Positions 16,255 to 64,000 of a stretch of 64,000 bases of DNA are shown piece after piece. Source of the stretch: Ignavibacteriales bacterium (GTDB lineage: Bacteria; Bacteroidota; Ignavibacteria; Ignavibacteriales; Ignavibacteriaceae). Both the position numbers and the translations under genes were made by a program. Each line of letters opens with the position of its first letter. The stretch's first letter is position 1. The stretch lies in the NCBI GenBank assembly GCA_015709675.1, contig CP054182.1:4133448-4197447 (forward strand). The letters are read 5' to 3'. The notes beneath the pieces were generated by a model. That model worked only from the letters and a program-made list of their open reading frames with translations. It was not told the DNA's origin and searched no databases.

Positions 16255-16656
16255 TGAGACACGAATCGGGGTGCCTGTGCGGGATTATTGCAAAAATTAG
16301 TTCATGTAAGGTGCATTATGGGGTTAGGACAAGTCACGACTTGTCCCTACGGAAAAATCAAATGAATCTAAGCTTTGTAGAGACACGCCGCGGCGTGTCT
16401 GTACGGGAGTACGGCAAACATCAAACATGTAAGGTTGCACAATGGGGTTAGGACAAGTCACAACTTGTCCCTACGGAAAAATCAAAGGAATCTAAGCTTT
16501 GTATAGACACGCCGTGGCGTGTCTGTACGGAATTCGCGCAAACATCAAATCATGTAAGGTTGCACAATGGGTTTAGGACAAGTCACGACTTGCCCCAAGG
16601 AGAGAATCAAATAAATCTAAACGTTGTACAGACACGCCGAGGCGTGTCTCTACAGA
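16255..16656. repeat. About 125-bp tandem repeat array with two palindromes per unit
   Basis: Three units plus a diverged half unit fill almost the whole 473-bp gap between the prohibitin-like gene and comB. Each unit holds GGACAAGTCACGACTTGTCC (starts 16327, 16451, 16576; spacing 124 and 125) and GACACGCCGCGGCGTGTC or a one-base variant. Compensated differences occur at the centres of the palindromes (CGCG, CGTG, CGAG), while arms are kept. No ORF is convincing. Similar GACACGCC palindromes are known as dispersed intergenic repeats; the role is unknown. Confidence 0.9.
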
Positions 16657-58663: not shown

Positions 58664-58713
58664 TTATGAATTATGAAGTATGAATTTTCGTAGAGACGAT
58701 CTAAAAGAATTAT

Positions 58714-58758
58714 GAATTATAAATAGGTTTATAAATTCATGTAAAGACGATGCAAACG
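58714..58758. repeat. Left 45-bp direct repeat flanking the 506-aa gene
   Basis: It pairs with 60447-60491 at 40 of 45 positions (both contain GGTTTATAAATT and GACGATGCAA). The surrounding 58664-58800 sequence is dense in ATTATGAATTATGAAG microrepeats and has a second partial GTAGAGACGAT unit at 58690. Confidence 0.8.
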
Positions 58759-58835
58759 AATTATGAATTATGAAGTATGAAGTATTAGATAACGAGTAAA
58801 ATTCTTCGCAAAAGTGAAAGAAAAATTATATGAGT

Positions 58836-60356
58836 TTAGGCAACTTTACTGAGAATAGCCGGTAACTCTAATTCGCGTATATAAAGACCACAAGGAATAG
58901 TGCTGAGTCCCAGTTTTGTTAAATGGTAACAATGGGTATTCGGCACTTTTTCTATAAGGTTGTGTTTTCTCAGTCGAGTTAGTATACGTGATACTTTTGC
59001 AGAACTGTAGTTATCACCGAGATTCTTACGCAAGGTTTTGTTTCTGATTCCATTGAGGGTATTACTCCCACAATGAACAGCAATAAGCACATCCTGTTCC
59101 TGCTTGTCAAAGAAGTTTATCCCTTTAACTGAGCGGCCATTATCTTTGAGGGGATTGCTGAGTTGTTCTAAATTCATTCTACCGGCTGAGGTATCATCGA
59201 AGGAGGCAAGAAAATCAAGGTATCTGCTGTTTACCGCTGTACACTCTTTCCTGAGCGGATGGATACTGTAAATACTCTTTTTCATCTCTGCTTTTTTCCA
59301 GGTGATTGTTCCCTGACGGGTTTTCACCATGCGATAGATTCTAAATGCTTTGATATTATTCACCGTCGTCTCAATGCGGAGAACTCCTGGAGCTTTATCA
59401 TACATTTTAACACTATTTGCACCAATAGCGTGCTTAACGCGAGTTCCATGAATCATTTTATTATAATGAGTAGTGACTTCCTGTTCATAATGAGCAGCAA
59501 GCGACCGGTTAAAAAAGGTAGCTATGTTACCTGGTTTGACCAAATGAATACATCTGAGGATTAATTCGTCGTAAAGATGTTTCATTCGATGCTTGTCCTT
59601 GAAGACAATATCGGTGGCATATTCTGCCTGAGTAAAAGTCCACTCCGGCCACTGGCGATATTCGGCAAAAACCGGGAGATATCGCCGCATAAATGCTTTC
59701 AGCCCGGAGTGTAAATTACCTGCACTGATTTTATCACTGAGTTTTTGTGCTTTCTGAAAATCACTTAGGTAGGTAAAGACATTATCCTGAAGAATATACA
59801 TGATCCGGTTCTTACGGAGTTTATAAGCCAGAAGATTATGACCGTTAAAATACAACTGAACTTTGCAAGGCAGCCAGGTAGGAATACGAATAAAGCAAAG
59901 TCCAAGATATTTATCTAAGAAATACAAATAATAATGCAGGCATTTTGAGGATCGCGCACGAACATCTCCGGTATGAGTGATCTTGTTCCAGGTGGTCTGA
60001 TATCCGTCGCAAGATTCCATAATTGAGAAAATCGCAACAATGCCTTGCTTGAGGTTCTTTTCAGAAATGATTTTTTTGACTGTATTTTCTTTGTTGACCA
60101 GTCTCGGACTCCTGATATAGACAATAGGAACCCGGGTTTTTGCACTAAGAGTCTCCATTTGTGCATTAATTTTATCACGGACGGATTTAGCAAATTTCGT
60201 ATAGTCCACAAACTTGATCTTGTGTTTGAGCAAAAAAAATTTCATTGCTCCCGGATATCTCCAGCCTGGCATTGTTCCACTGATAATAATCCGGTCAAAA
60301 CAACTTACAACACCGAGAATATTGTCTTTATATTTTTCCAGAAAAGCCGAGAACAT
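58836..60356 (-). CDS. 506-aa protein of a dispersed unknown family
   Basis: I recognise the pattern (N-terminal LGVVSCFDRIIISGTMPGW, C-terminal helix-turn-helix-like SSAKVSRILTRLRKHNLIEKVPNTHCYHLT) as a family of about 450-500 aa that occurs in many distant bacteria, often in several copies, with no proven function. The middle is basic and rich in Tyr/His; no clear DDE, HUH or recombinase motif is visible. The presence of 45-bp direct repeats on both sides and of dispersed palindromic arrays next to it suggests mobility. AAAAGGA precedes the ATG. It is intact. Confidence 0.6.
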   Translation of the reverse strand: MFSAFLEKYKDNILGVVSCFDRIIISGTMPGWRYPGAMKFFLLKHKIKFVDYTKFAKSVRDKINAQMETLSAKTRVPIVYIRSPRLVNKENTVKKIISEKNLKQGIVAIFSIMESCDGYQTTWNKITHTGDVRARSSKCLHYYLYFLDKYLGLCFIRIPTWLPCKVQLYFNGHNLLAYKLRKNRIMYILQDNVFTYLSDFQKAQKLSDKISAGNLHSGLKAFMRRYLPVFAEYRQWPEWTFTQAEYATDIVFKDKHRMKHLYDELILRCIHLVKPGNIATFFNRSLAAHYEQEVTTHYNKMIHGTRVKHAIGANSVKMYDKAPGVLRIETTVNNIKAFRIYRMVKTRQGTITWKKAEMKKSIYSIHPLRKECTAVNSRYLDFLASFDDTSAGRMNLEQLSNPLKDNGRSVKGINFFDKQEQDVLIAVHCGSNTLNGIRNKTLRKNLGDNYSSAKVSRILTRLRKHNLIEKVPNTHCYHLTKLGLSTIPCGLYIRELELPAILSKVA

Positions 60357-60446
60357 GAGAATCCTTTTGCAATTGAGTTCTCTATATTACGAAAATTCCC
60401 ATGAATTTGTTCGCTTACCATTTTGGTTCTGGCTACGCCAGCGTAT

Positions 60447-60491
60447 GAATTACAAATTGGTTTATAAATTTATGTAGAGACGATGCAATCG
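60447..60491. repeat. Right 45-bp direct repeat flanking the 506-aa gene
   Basis: Partner of 58714-58758, same orientation. Its right part is also the start of the first unit of the 110-bp array. Confidence 0.8.
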
Positions 60492-61010
60492 CCAGGAGAA
60501 ACCATTATATACAGCATTTTTTTGCGATTGCGTCGTCTCATCGAGTATCTGCGCCTTACACCTCAATAAATTCCTTTTCCTTTCAATATACGATGCAATC
60601 GCATGGACAGAACATTATACACGATATTTTTTTGCGATTGCGTCGTCTCATCAAGTATCTGCGCCTAACACCTCAATAAATTCCTTTTCCTTCCCTGAGA
60701 CAATGCAATAGCAAGGAGACACCATTATACACGATATTTTTTGCGATTGCGTCGTCTCATCGAGTATCTGCGCCTTACACCTCAATAGATTTCTATTCAT
60801 TCCCTTAGACGATGCAATAGCAAGGGAACACCACTATATACTGCAATTTTTTGCGATTGCATCGTCTCATCGAGTATCTGCGCCTTACACCTCAATAGAT
60901 TCCTTTTCCTTTACTGAGACAATGCAATAGCAAGGGAACACCATTATATACTGCAATTTTTTGCGATTGCGTTGTTTTATTGCGTATCTGCCCGATACAA
61001 ATTGGCCCCT
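60480..61010. repeat. Five-copy, 110-bp tandem repeat array with a hairpin in each unit
   Basis: Units begin with ACGATGCAATCG-like sequence at 60480, 60590, 60700, 60809 and 60919 (spacing 110, 110, 109, 110). Each unit holds an inverted repeat: GACGATGCAATCGC pairs with GCGATTGCGTCGTC about 28 nt further on, with a T-run in the loop. The end of the unit is the conserved CATCGAGTATCTGCGCC-ACACCTCAATA phrase. The last unit decays after the hairpin. The array fills most of the 60357-61109 gap; no ORF is supported. Confidence 0.93.
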
Positions 61011-62356: not shown

Positions 62357-64000
62357 ATGAAAAATCGTTCTATCACAATCCTCTTTCTCGCTTTTTTACT
62401 TTCGTCAATACAAATCAGCATGCCCCAAAACTGGCTGAAAGTGGATTCCGTCTTTAATCCTTCGGGCGTATATGCCCTGAGTTTTTCCTGTCCGGCGTTT
62501 GCCGATATGGATGGTGACGGTAAAACAGATCTCTTTGTGGGAAACTCCACCAGGGCACAATACTTTAAAAATATTTCCGATTCAGGCATCACCTCATTCA
62601 GCTATGACGAGGCAATGCTGGCTTCGATATATACAACCAGCATCGGGGTTAACAATTATTATCCCCTCACCGCTGATCTTGACAATGACGGCGATAACGA
62701 TCTGATCATCGGCGGTTACAATGGCTTTATATACTACCGTAATGACGGCAACCCCGCTTCCGCAGTGTGGACAAAGATTGACACATTTTTTCAGGCGGTG
62801 AATCCCCTTATCGGCACCGATGCGCGCCCCGTGCTTGTGGATATTGACAATGACGGTGATCTGGATTTATTCGCCGGCATTGGCGAGTCACTGTTCGGCG
62901 GTCCCACGGCGGGCATTACCATCGGATTCAGAAATACCGGCAATAACACATCCGCCGTGTTCACGCAGGATAACACCCTCACAACCGGACTTCCTGATGC
63001 AGGGCTTAACTCTTTTCCCGCATTCGCGGATGTTGACGCAGACGGTGATTATGATCTCCTGATCGGGCGCGATATTGCCTCATTCCTCTTTTACCGGAAT
63101 ACCGGAACCGCCGCTTCACCGGTCTGGACGCGTGATTTTAATATGTTCAACACCATGGAAACCACCACATACTGGAAAGTTCCCGTTCTGTTTGATTACG
63201 ACAATGACGGCGATTATGACCTTATATACGGCAGCGATAACGGCCGCCTTACGGTCTATCAGAACACGGGCACGCCCACAGCTCCTGTATATACACGCAA
63301 TAATGATCTTTTCCGCGTGATAAAAAGCCAGGGAAGCGGAGCCACTGCCGCGCTTGGTGATTTTGATAACGACGGCGATTATGATCTGATAAGCGGTGAC
63401 TGGAGCGGCAAGTTTCAGTACTTCCGGAATAGCGGCGGACAGGTCTTCCCCTCGTTTGCTTCCGTTTCTTCCCCCCTGACCGTACTCGATCCCGGTTCCT
63501 ATTCATCCCCCACCGTGGTTGATCTGGATGGCGATGGCGATCTTGATGTGGTTGCCGGCGAATTGAACGGCAAACTCTACGGATATATAAATAACGGAGG
63601 AAGTTTTGCATCAAACAATGCTCCCTTTTCAGCAATAAATGTCACCGGTTTTTCGCATCCGGCTTTTGCTGATCTGGATGCCGATGGCGACCCTGATCTC
63701 ATCCTCGGCGCAGAGACATCATCCAACTGGCGCGCTTACCGGAATCAGGGTTCAATGACATTTGTTGAAGACAATACCCTTCTGACAGGCGTTACCACTT
63801 ACAGCAGAGGTAAACCGGCTCTGGCCGATATTGACCTTGATGGTGACTATGATCTGGTAATCGGCCGCTCATTTGGTGAGGTGGCTTTATTTGAAAATAA
63901 AGGTACAGCCCTGTCCCCCTCCTGGGTTTTGAATGACACCCTGTTCGCGGGCATCAAGGTCAAGCAAAGCGCCTCCCCCGCATTTGGCGATATGGATGGT
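62357..64000 (+). CDS. Secreted FG-GAP/VCBS repeat protein (3' end outside window)
   Basis: Open for 548 codons to the last base, with no stop in the window. A signal peptide (MKNRSITILFLAFLLSSIQI) is followed by repeats with the calcium-binding-like core D-x-D-x-D-G-D-x-D-L (for example ADMDGDGKTDLFVG at about 62504, ADLDNDGDNDLIIG, VDIDNDGDLDLFAG, ADVDADGDYDLLIG, FDYDNDGDYDLIYG, GDFDNDGDYDLISG, VDLDGDGDLDVVAG, ADLDADGDPDLILG, ADIDLDGDYDLVIG, and a tenth at 63986). The period is about 55 residues. These beta-propeller blades occur in cell-surface and secreted proteins; a C-terminal sorting domain would lie beyond the window. Confidence 0.88.
   Translation, partial: MKNRSITILFLAFLLSSIQISMPQNWLKVDSVFNPSGVYALSFSCPAFADMDGDGKTDLFVGNSTRAQYFKNISDSGITSFSYDEAMLASIYTTSIGVNNYYPLTADLDNDGDNDLIIGGYNGFIYYRNDGNPASAVWTKIDTFFQAVNPLIGTDARPVLVDIDNDGDLDLFAGIGESLFGGPTAGITIGFRNTGNNTSAVFTQDNTLTTGLPDAGLNSFPAFADVDADGDYDLLIGRDIASFLFYRNTGTAASPVWTRDFNMFNTMETTTYWKVPVLFDYDNDGDYDLIYGSDNGRLTVYQNTGTPTAPVYTRNNDLFRVIKSQGSGATAALGDFDNDGDYDLISGDWSGKFQYFRNSGGQVFPSFASVSSPLTVLDPGSYSSPTVVDLDGDGDLDVVAGELNGKLYGYINNGGSFASNNAPFSAINVTGFSHPAFADLDADGDPDLILGAETSSNWRAYRNQGSMTFVEDNTLLTGVTTYSRGKPALADIDLDGDYDLVIGRSFGEVALFENKGTALSPSWVLNDTLFAGIKVKQSASPAFGDMDG

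Follow-up and report, generated by a model that had tools for sequence, protein, structure and literature searches.

What is the 506-amino-acid open reading frame (ORF) at positions 58836 to 60356 (minus strand) of a 64-kb stretch of the Ignavibacteriales contig CP054182.1 (the whole stretch is referred to here as the window), and do the direct repeats that flank it mark its ends? An earlier note on this DNA had described two 45-bp repeats (58714 to 58758 and 60447 to 60491) and proposed that the gene lies on a novel mobile element. The repeats are indeed present, agreeing at 40 of 45 positions, and the right one continues into a 110-bp tandem array (60478 to 60991; 4.7 copies). The analysis reported here indicates that the segment between positions 58784 and 60444 is a one-gene insertion sequence (IS) of a widespread bacterial family, found also in a Bathyarchaeia metagenome-assembled genome (MAG), whose product would probably be a tyrosine nickase with a TATA-binding protein (TBP)-like fold resembling the Rep_trans and MOBT enzymes.

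The ends of the element are defined by its copies. The source genome, a single 4.21-Mb contig, holds four (L001 to L004) that are 98.9 to 100% identical, each aligning over 1,660 bp from ATTAGATAACGAG to GCCAGCG, with exact common ends and flanks that are unrelated apart from heptamer units. The element, on the minus strand, is given here as 1,661 bp, i.e., the shared core plus one base with the crossover set at T'A; the copies narrow the crossover in the window to the 3 nt ATA, and T'A was picked by analogy with the family. In gene orientation the element reads ACGCTGG...TCTAAT, and the 506-amino-acid ORF is undamaged in all four copies. L003 and L004 are identical and L001 and L002 are 2 nt apart, with 17 to 19 differences between the pairs. 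The 17 differences that separate L001 from L003 all fall within the first 397 and the last ∼47 positions, and the identical interior of ∼1.2 kb is suggestive of gene conversion or recombination among the copies.

These borders lie inside the direct repeats. A repeat search stretches the latter to 58711 to 58758 and 60444 to 60491 (48 nt, 90% identity); the left one is host repeat outside the element and the right one is host repeat abutting it, with its first base common to both. Repeats that bracket a gene, one of them adjoining the element, could be att-like ends recognized by the protein, as the earlier note had suggested as one option, but they are missing from the other three copies, and a kindred copy stands at G000:C1:3459347 with no element nearby; this explanation retains next to no probability. 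The repeats are pieces of a dispersed host repeat composed of a heptamer tract and GGTTTATAAATT-ATGTA-AGACGATGCAA and, because both belong to it, reveal little about the gene.

The heptamer tract is the target. Tandem TTCATAM heptamers number 18 in the window, versus 0.11 in shuffles, and all four copies are inserted in (TATGAAK)n tracts, which is far from chance because such tracts make up only 0.26% of the window. Insertion in the window took place between TTCAT and ACTTCATA within a tract whose left part spans 58759 to 58783 and whose right part (ATGAATTAC) spans 60445 to 60453. In silico removal of the 1,661 bp gives ...GAAGT^ATGAATTAC..., with the heptamer register unbroken and two 48-bp repeats 72 bp apart, linked by a continuous heptamer tract. 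The proposal that the gene had inserted into a preexisting array therefore holds for the repeats but not for the 110-bp unit, which is not split; the site is the heptamer tract beside the array. Empty sites in relatives, a further sign of mobility that the earlier note had named together with borders shared among copies, were also found: in a genome of the same genus, the L002 site is unoccupied (CACAATATGGCTTAATGAAGTATGAATTGGG versus CACAATATGGCGTGATGAATT, the element, and TATGAATT...). No target duplication is seen past the 2 to 5 bp of shared core, and the element has no terminal inverted repeats. The source genome has neither solo ends nor gene-less miniature inverted-repeat transposable elements (MITEs), as just four left ends were found. 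As a target, the heptamer is a variant that in this analysis only the window lineage shows.

When one genome per species was scanned with a profile, 183 family loci were found, of which 80 were kept; the hosts are Lachnospiraceae, Acidobacteria, Anaerolineae, Bacteroidales, Planctomycetes, several proteobacterial groups, and the one Bathyarchaeia MAG. Among 116 relatives of the window's genome, just 10 have any match. The loci are often multicopy, and copy number can be high: an Anaerolineales genome has 34 matches, including 7 full-length copies with equal scores, Lachnospiraceae A4 has 23 matches, and Dorea sp. 5-2 has 10. Family members carry the annotation “hypothetical” or “ArsR family regulator,” and no literature on the family or its terminal sequence was found in a search that did not cover subscription journals, bioRxiv, or ISfinder. 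Phage records contain no family match and viral contigs one partial copy, and a phage origin was dropped. One viral contig (L185) has a family-like 5' end; the 4.7 kb that follow contain neither a transposase gene nor a clear 3' end. A very distant branch (L179 to L183; 21 to 23% identity) on Mycobacterium, Rhodococcus, Caballeronia, and Paraburkholderia plasmids keeps the catalytic residues described below. One copy (L037), left out of the empty-site search and supporting none of the conclusions, lies within an Rhs/YD-repeat-like gene.

Most loci share one plan, with CCT'AAC-CCGG(5 nt)CCGG-AACCAAA near the 5' (gene-upstream) end and a 3' (gene-downstream) end in ...ACT'A. Across phyla the 5' end reads CCTAA[CG]CCGG-N5-CCGG-AACCAAANAGG, and the 3' end reads TAAG-N2-3-ACTA or GCCTA, with TAAGRKACT'A as the family counterpart of the window terminus. 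The window element follows the same plan with a different target, reading TTCAT'ACG-CTGGC-GTA-GCCAG-AACCAAAA at one end and ...CTCGTTATCTAAT'A at the other; its 3' terminus, CTCGTTATCTAAT (58784 to 58796, minus strand), ends at the crossover T'A and is identical in all four copies. The 5' hairpin CTGGC-GTA-GCCAG, followed by AACCAAAA, lies at 60429 to 60441 (minus strand; single-stranded DNA fold, z of −2.5). Across 33 distinct sequences, all cells (100%) of the four-pair stem of the homologous hairpin are paired, C-G/G-C and C-G/T-A exchanges occur, and both the covariation score and the count of double changes lie above all 500 shuffles (0/500) and every slid register, in a set chosen by a pattern that already demanded the inner GG...CC and only loosely constrained the outer two, covarying pairs. 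A second small 5' hairpin, ACCA-AAA-TGGT (60417 to 60427, minus strand; AACC-AAANA-GGTT in the family), is present in the window element and in an Anaerolineales member.

The flanks of a Dorea copy, joined with a single CCTAA, equal a related genome at 345 of 345 nt, and empty versions of a second Dorea site exist in four relatives; the single CCTAA of the empty site means that one (C)CTAA becomes two upon insertion. The five copies of one Anaerolineales element (L097 to L101) all have CCTAA at the 5' end, while the base after the 3' CTA varies (G, A, A, T, and A) and is therefore target derived. The third base of the 5' core is variable in other members (CCC and CTT) and the 3' core is constantly CT'A. 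This pattern of variation at both cores indicates exchange at T'A, i.e., CCT'AA and ACT'A in the family and CAT'AC and AAT'AC in the window element.

Gene-less MITEs with both ends are ∼78 to 200 bp long and include elements of 197 bp (L187) and 150 bp (L186), the smallest, at ∼78 to 80 bp, being those of a gammaproteobacterium (L230 to L232; genome G794). Their existence indicates that two ends suffice for movement in trans. Larger sets of such copies occur in two genomes, in which left ends number 64 (G787, the genome of L082) and 34 (G783, the genome of L065), versus 0 for a reversed-pattern control. In the stretch read, several left-end copies inspected in G787 and G783 lack a transposase gene, and some copies in G787 hold another internal repeat (ACAGAGACACAGAGGCCACTGAGAAG). 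In G794, the L230 to L232 MITEs and other left ends have CCC'AA, not CCT'AA, at the 5' end.

Sequence comparison shows that the element is an IS in the general sense, with defined ends, copies at unrelated sites, its own transposase gene, and empty sites, and the proposal that the gene lies on a novel mobile element is borne out. We infer from the status of the 506-amino-acid protein as sole gene product and from its conservation that it is the transposase. The C-terminal winged helix-turn-helix (wHTH) and the annotation of a plasmid homologue as an “ArsR family transcriptional regulator” would fit a host regulator of the ArsR/MarR type, duplicated by recombination between satellite repeats. 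A regulator of this kind would not be expected to show exact empty sites, two-ended MITEs, and, across many phyla, sharp borders with unrelated sequence beyond them, and this origin is very improbable.

The single-strand transposons of the IS200/IS605 type, in which guide sequences pair with the target, offer a parallel. Like these Y1 HUH elements, the family lacks terminal inverted repeats and clear target duplication, has an end hairpin near its 5' end, uses a short fixed target that is left intact in a seamless empty site, and has gene-less derivatives, its MITEs being akin to REP-type repeats. Unlike them, it encodes a protein of 506 rather than ∼150 amino acids, with no HUH motif, Y1 transposase domain, or conserved HxH, and has no supported guide and no detectable lagging-strand bias, the absence of which sets it apart from IS608-like elements. 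Pairing of guide and target (CCT with AGG; CAT with ATG in the window) was considered and rejected: the bases considered as a guide, AGG, form the 3' arm of the second hairpin and show no covariation with the target. Membership in the IS200/IS605 type is thus highly unlikely. The MITEs resemble REPINs, mobilized by TnpA_REP, in being tiny palindromic nonautonomous copies moved in trans, but the enzyme is different and autonomous copies of the family move too. A preference for repeated intergenic targets is shared with IS110/IS1111 (DEDD) elements such as ISPpu9, from which the family differs in having no DEDD family match. It differs from DDE-type IS in lacking terminal inverted repeats, target duplication, and a DDE family match; domain searches gave no match to DDE, DEDD_Tnp_IS110, or Transposase_20 domains or to the integrase and resolvase domains of tyrosine and serine recombinases.

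What, then, is the enzyme? The protein is unmatched in Pfam, NCBIfam, PHROGs, and PDB outside its C-terminal wHTH. AlphaFold2 models of the whole window protein (predicted local distance difference test [pLDDT] score, 89.4) and of the catalytic domain of an acidobacterial homologue (pLDDT, 92.9; predicted template modeling score, 0.89) predict a TBP-like catalytic domain at residues ∼1 to 360, built of two modules, in each of which helices and four strands come after a long strand; a MarR-like winged helix, supported by wHTH matches, occupies residues ∼417 to 483. Foldseek comparison with viral models retrieved TBPs (E value, 5.8e-5; probability, 1.0) and, from an inovirus, a protein whose function is unknown. 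A PDB fold search with both models gave nothing significant, an archaeal TBP being a recurrent match (probability, 0.75).

The conserved residues point toward Rep_trans. E245, K317-x-Y319-x-K321, and R327-x-E329 are invariant in 56 of 56 sequences, down to 21% identity, and D21 occurs in 49 of 50 close members; of the four distant members aligned there, two have it. The strand order of the models fits RepDE, which has this topology, with metal ligands D46, D142, and E214 and the motifs R189-x-Y191-x-K193 and R212-x-E214 (PMC4797284), and in the models D21, E245, the Y319 motif, and R327-x-E329 fall on strands corresponding to RepDE strands 1, 6, 10, and 11. Rep_trans homologues carry a similar S-x-x-[RK]-x-Y-x-K...RxE motif, and MOBT relaxases require equivalent residues (PMC6499999). 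Rep_trans and MOBT enzymes share the nic site CT'AA, which MOBT relaxases cut next to or within a GC-rich hairpin (PMC9371924). The family thus resembles Rep_trans (PF02486) and MOBT proteins (RepDE, RelSt3, and NicK) in its predicted TBP-like topology, predicted D, D-or-E, and E metal set, [RK]-x-Y-x-K and RxE motifs, exchange at T'A within CT'AA, GC-rich hairpin by the site, and separate HTH-type domain, and the same chemistry is indicated independently by the enzyme (its residue set) and by the site (the crossover). It differs in having no significant profile match and in forming self-contained IS and MITEs rather than a plasmid origin or oriT. The same pattern of Foldseek matches led another group to a Rep_trans relation for Rep-Arvir (PMC13107129). 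These Reps of archaeal viruses and plasmids (PF25227) likewise combine a TBP-like catalytic domain with a wHTH and match giant-virus TBPs and an Inoviridae protein, but Rep-Arvir initiates replication, whereas the family gene is a putative IS transposase and mostly bacterial; PF25227 was not among the families listed for the A4 members at E values of ≤1 (the 25 commonest of 46).

Other observations weigh against a Rep_trans-like transposase. Profile-profile comparison with 12 Rep_trans proteins was not significant (hhalign probability, 0.2%), and neither was a subprofile of strands 6 to 11, for which shuffled controls scored as high. No PF02486 match was obtained with hmmscan, and neither model has a Rep_trans structure, RepDE included, among its 50 best PDB matches. 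The nic site of MOBT relaxases lies inside the loop of a GC-rich hairpin, whereas the crossover of the family lies 5' of its hairpin and outside it. The hairpin near the 3' end (TTCTT-N11-AAGAA; 58802 to 58822, minus strand) is weak (−1.1 kcal/mol) and not better than shuffled sequence. A search of 299 Lachnospiraceae genomes and of viral contigs gave no circle or tandem junction sequences, and the GC skew of the flanks revealed no lagging-strand orientation bias (25/55).

These observations are relevant to a different reading of the mobile IS, namely, that its enzyme represents an entirely novel type of catalysis, or else an HUH or DEDD enzyme that has diverged strongly, and that the Rep_trans-like residues and CTAA reflect coincidence or convergence. 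The nonsignificant sequence and PDB fold matches favor this reading, as do E114, H141-x-Y143-x-Y145, and N171-G172-H173, which lie outside the Rep_trans model. It leaves to chance the presence of a full catalytic set on the expected strands and the identity of the crossover with the nic site of the Rep_trans class, and the lack of a conserved HxH and of HUH or DEDD family matches also counts against it. We regard it as unlikely, though deserving serious consideration. The additional residues themselves are invariant or nearly so, lie in the first half of the fold, and are left unexplained by the Rep_trans comparison; they may possibly form a second active site or a DNA contact.

We do not claim membership in Rep_trans, as the profile comparison was not significant and homology is not shown. 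The element represents a new IS family that probably moves by Rep_trans-like strand transfer. It seems more likely than not that the enzyme is a Rep_trans-like tyrosine nickase of TBP fold, which would make up a new catalytic class among transposases, and that it moves IS and MITEs by single-strand transfer at CT'AA, with the window lineage retargeted to a host heptamer satellite. We propose the following. (i) Y319 would attack T'A at both ends and become bonded to the 5' phosphate, with D21, E245, and E329 holding a metal. (ii) The left flank, through its 3' hydroxyl, would be connected with the right flank to leave a resealed, scarless donor, and the ends of the element would be joined into a circle, probably single stranded. 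(iii) The circle would enter a new (C)CT'A(A) target by the reverse reaction. (iv) In the window lineage, the TTCAT'A heptamer satellite of the host genome would have taken the place of the family target.

IS transposases are grouped into DDE, DEDD, HUH, tyrosine, and serine types (PMC8147514). If the proposal is correct, the Rep_trans-like type would be the sixth, a second, non-HUH family of rolling-circle nickases would also be a source of transposons, and rolling-circle Reps and MOBT relaxases would be tied to transposition, as HUH enzymes already are. Because the family is common, is annotated as hypothetical or as an ArsR regulator, and spreads MITEs, many genomes contain unrecognized mobile DNA. 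With the tiny MITEs (∼78 to 85 bp), the mechanism can be tested directly, and they might provide tools.

Other repeats of the window were also recorded. The units of the 110-bp array contain inverted repeats (GACGATGCAATCGC ... GCGATTGCGTCGTCTC) resembling repetitive extragenic palindromic sequences; these have no sequence link to the element ends, and similar palindromes are scattered in the genome (L004 and L005). A further tandem repeat (124-bp unit, 2.8 copies) lies at 16302 to 16653. Finally, the gene region at 62487 to 64000 carries D-x-D-x-D-G-D motifs every ∼150 to 165 nt and appears, by eye, FG-GAP/VCBS-like.
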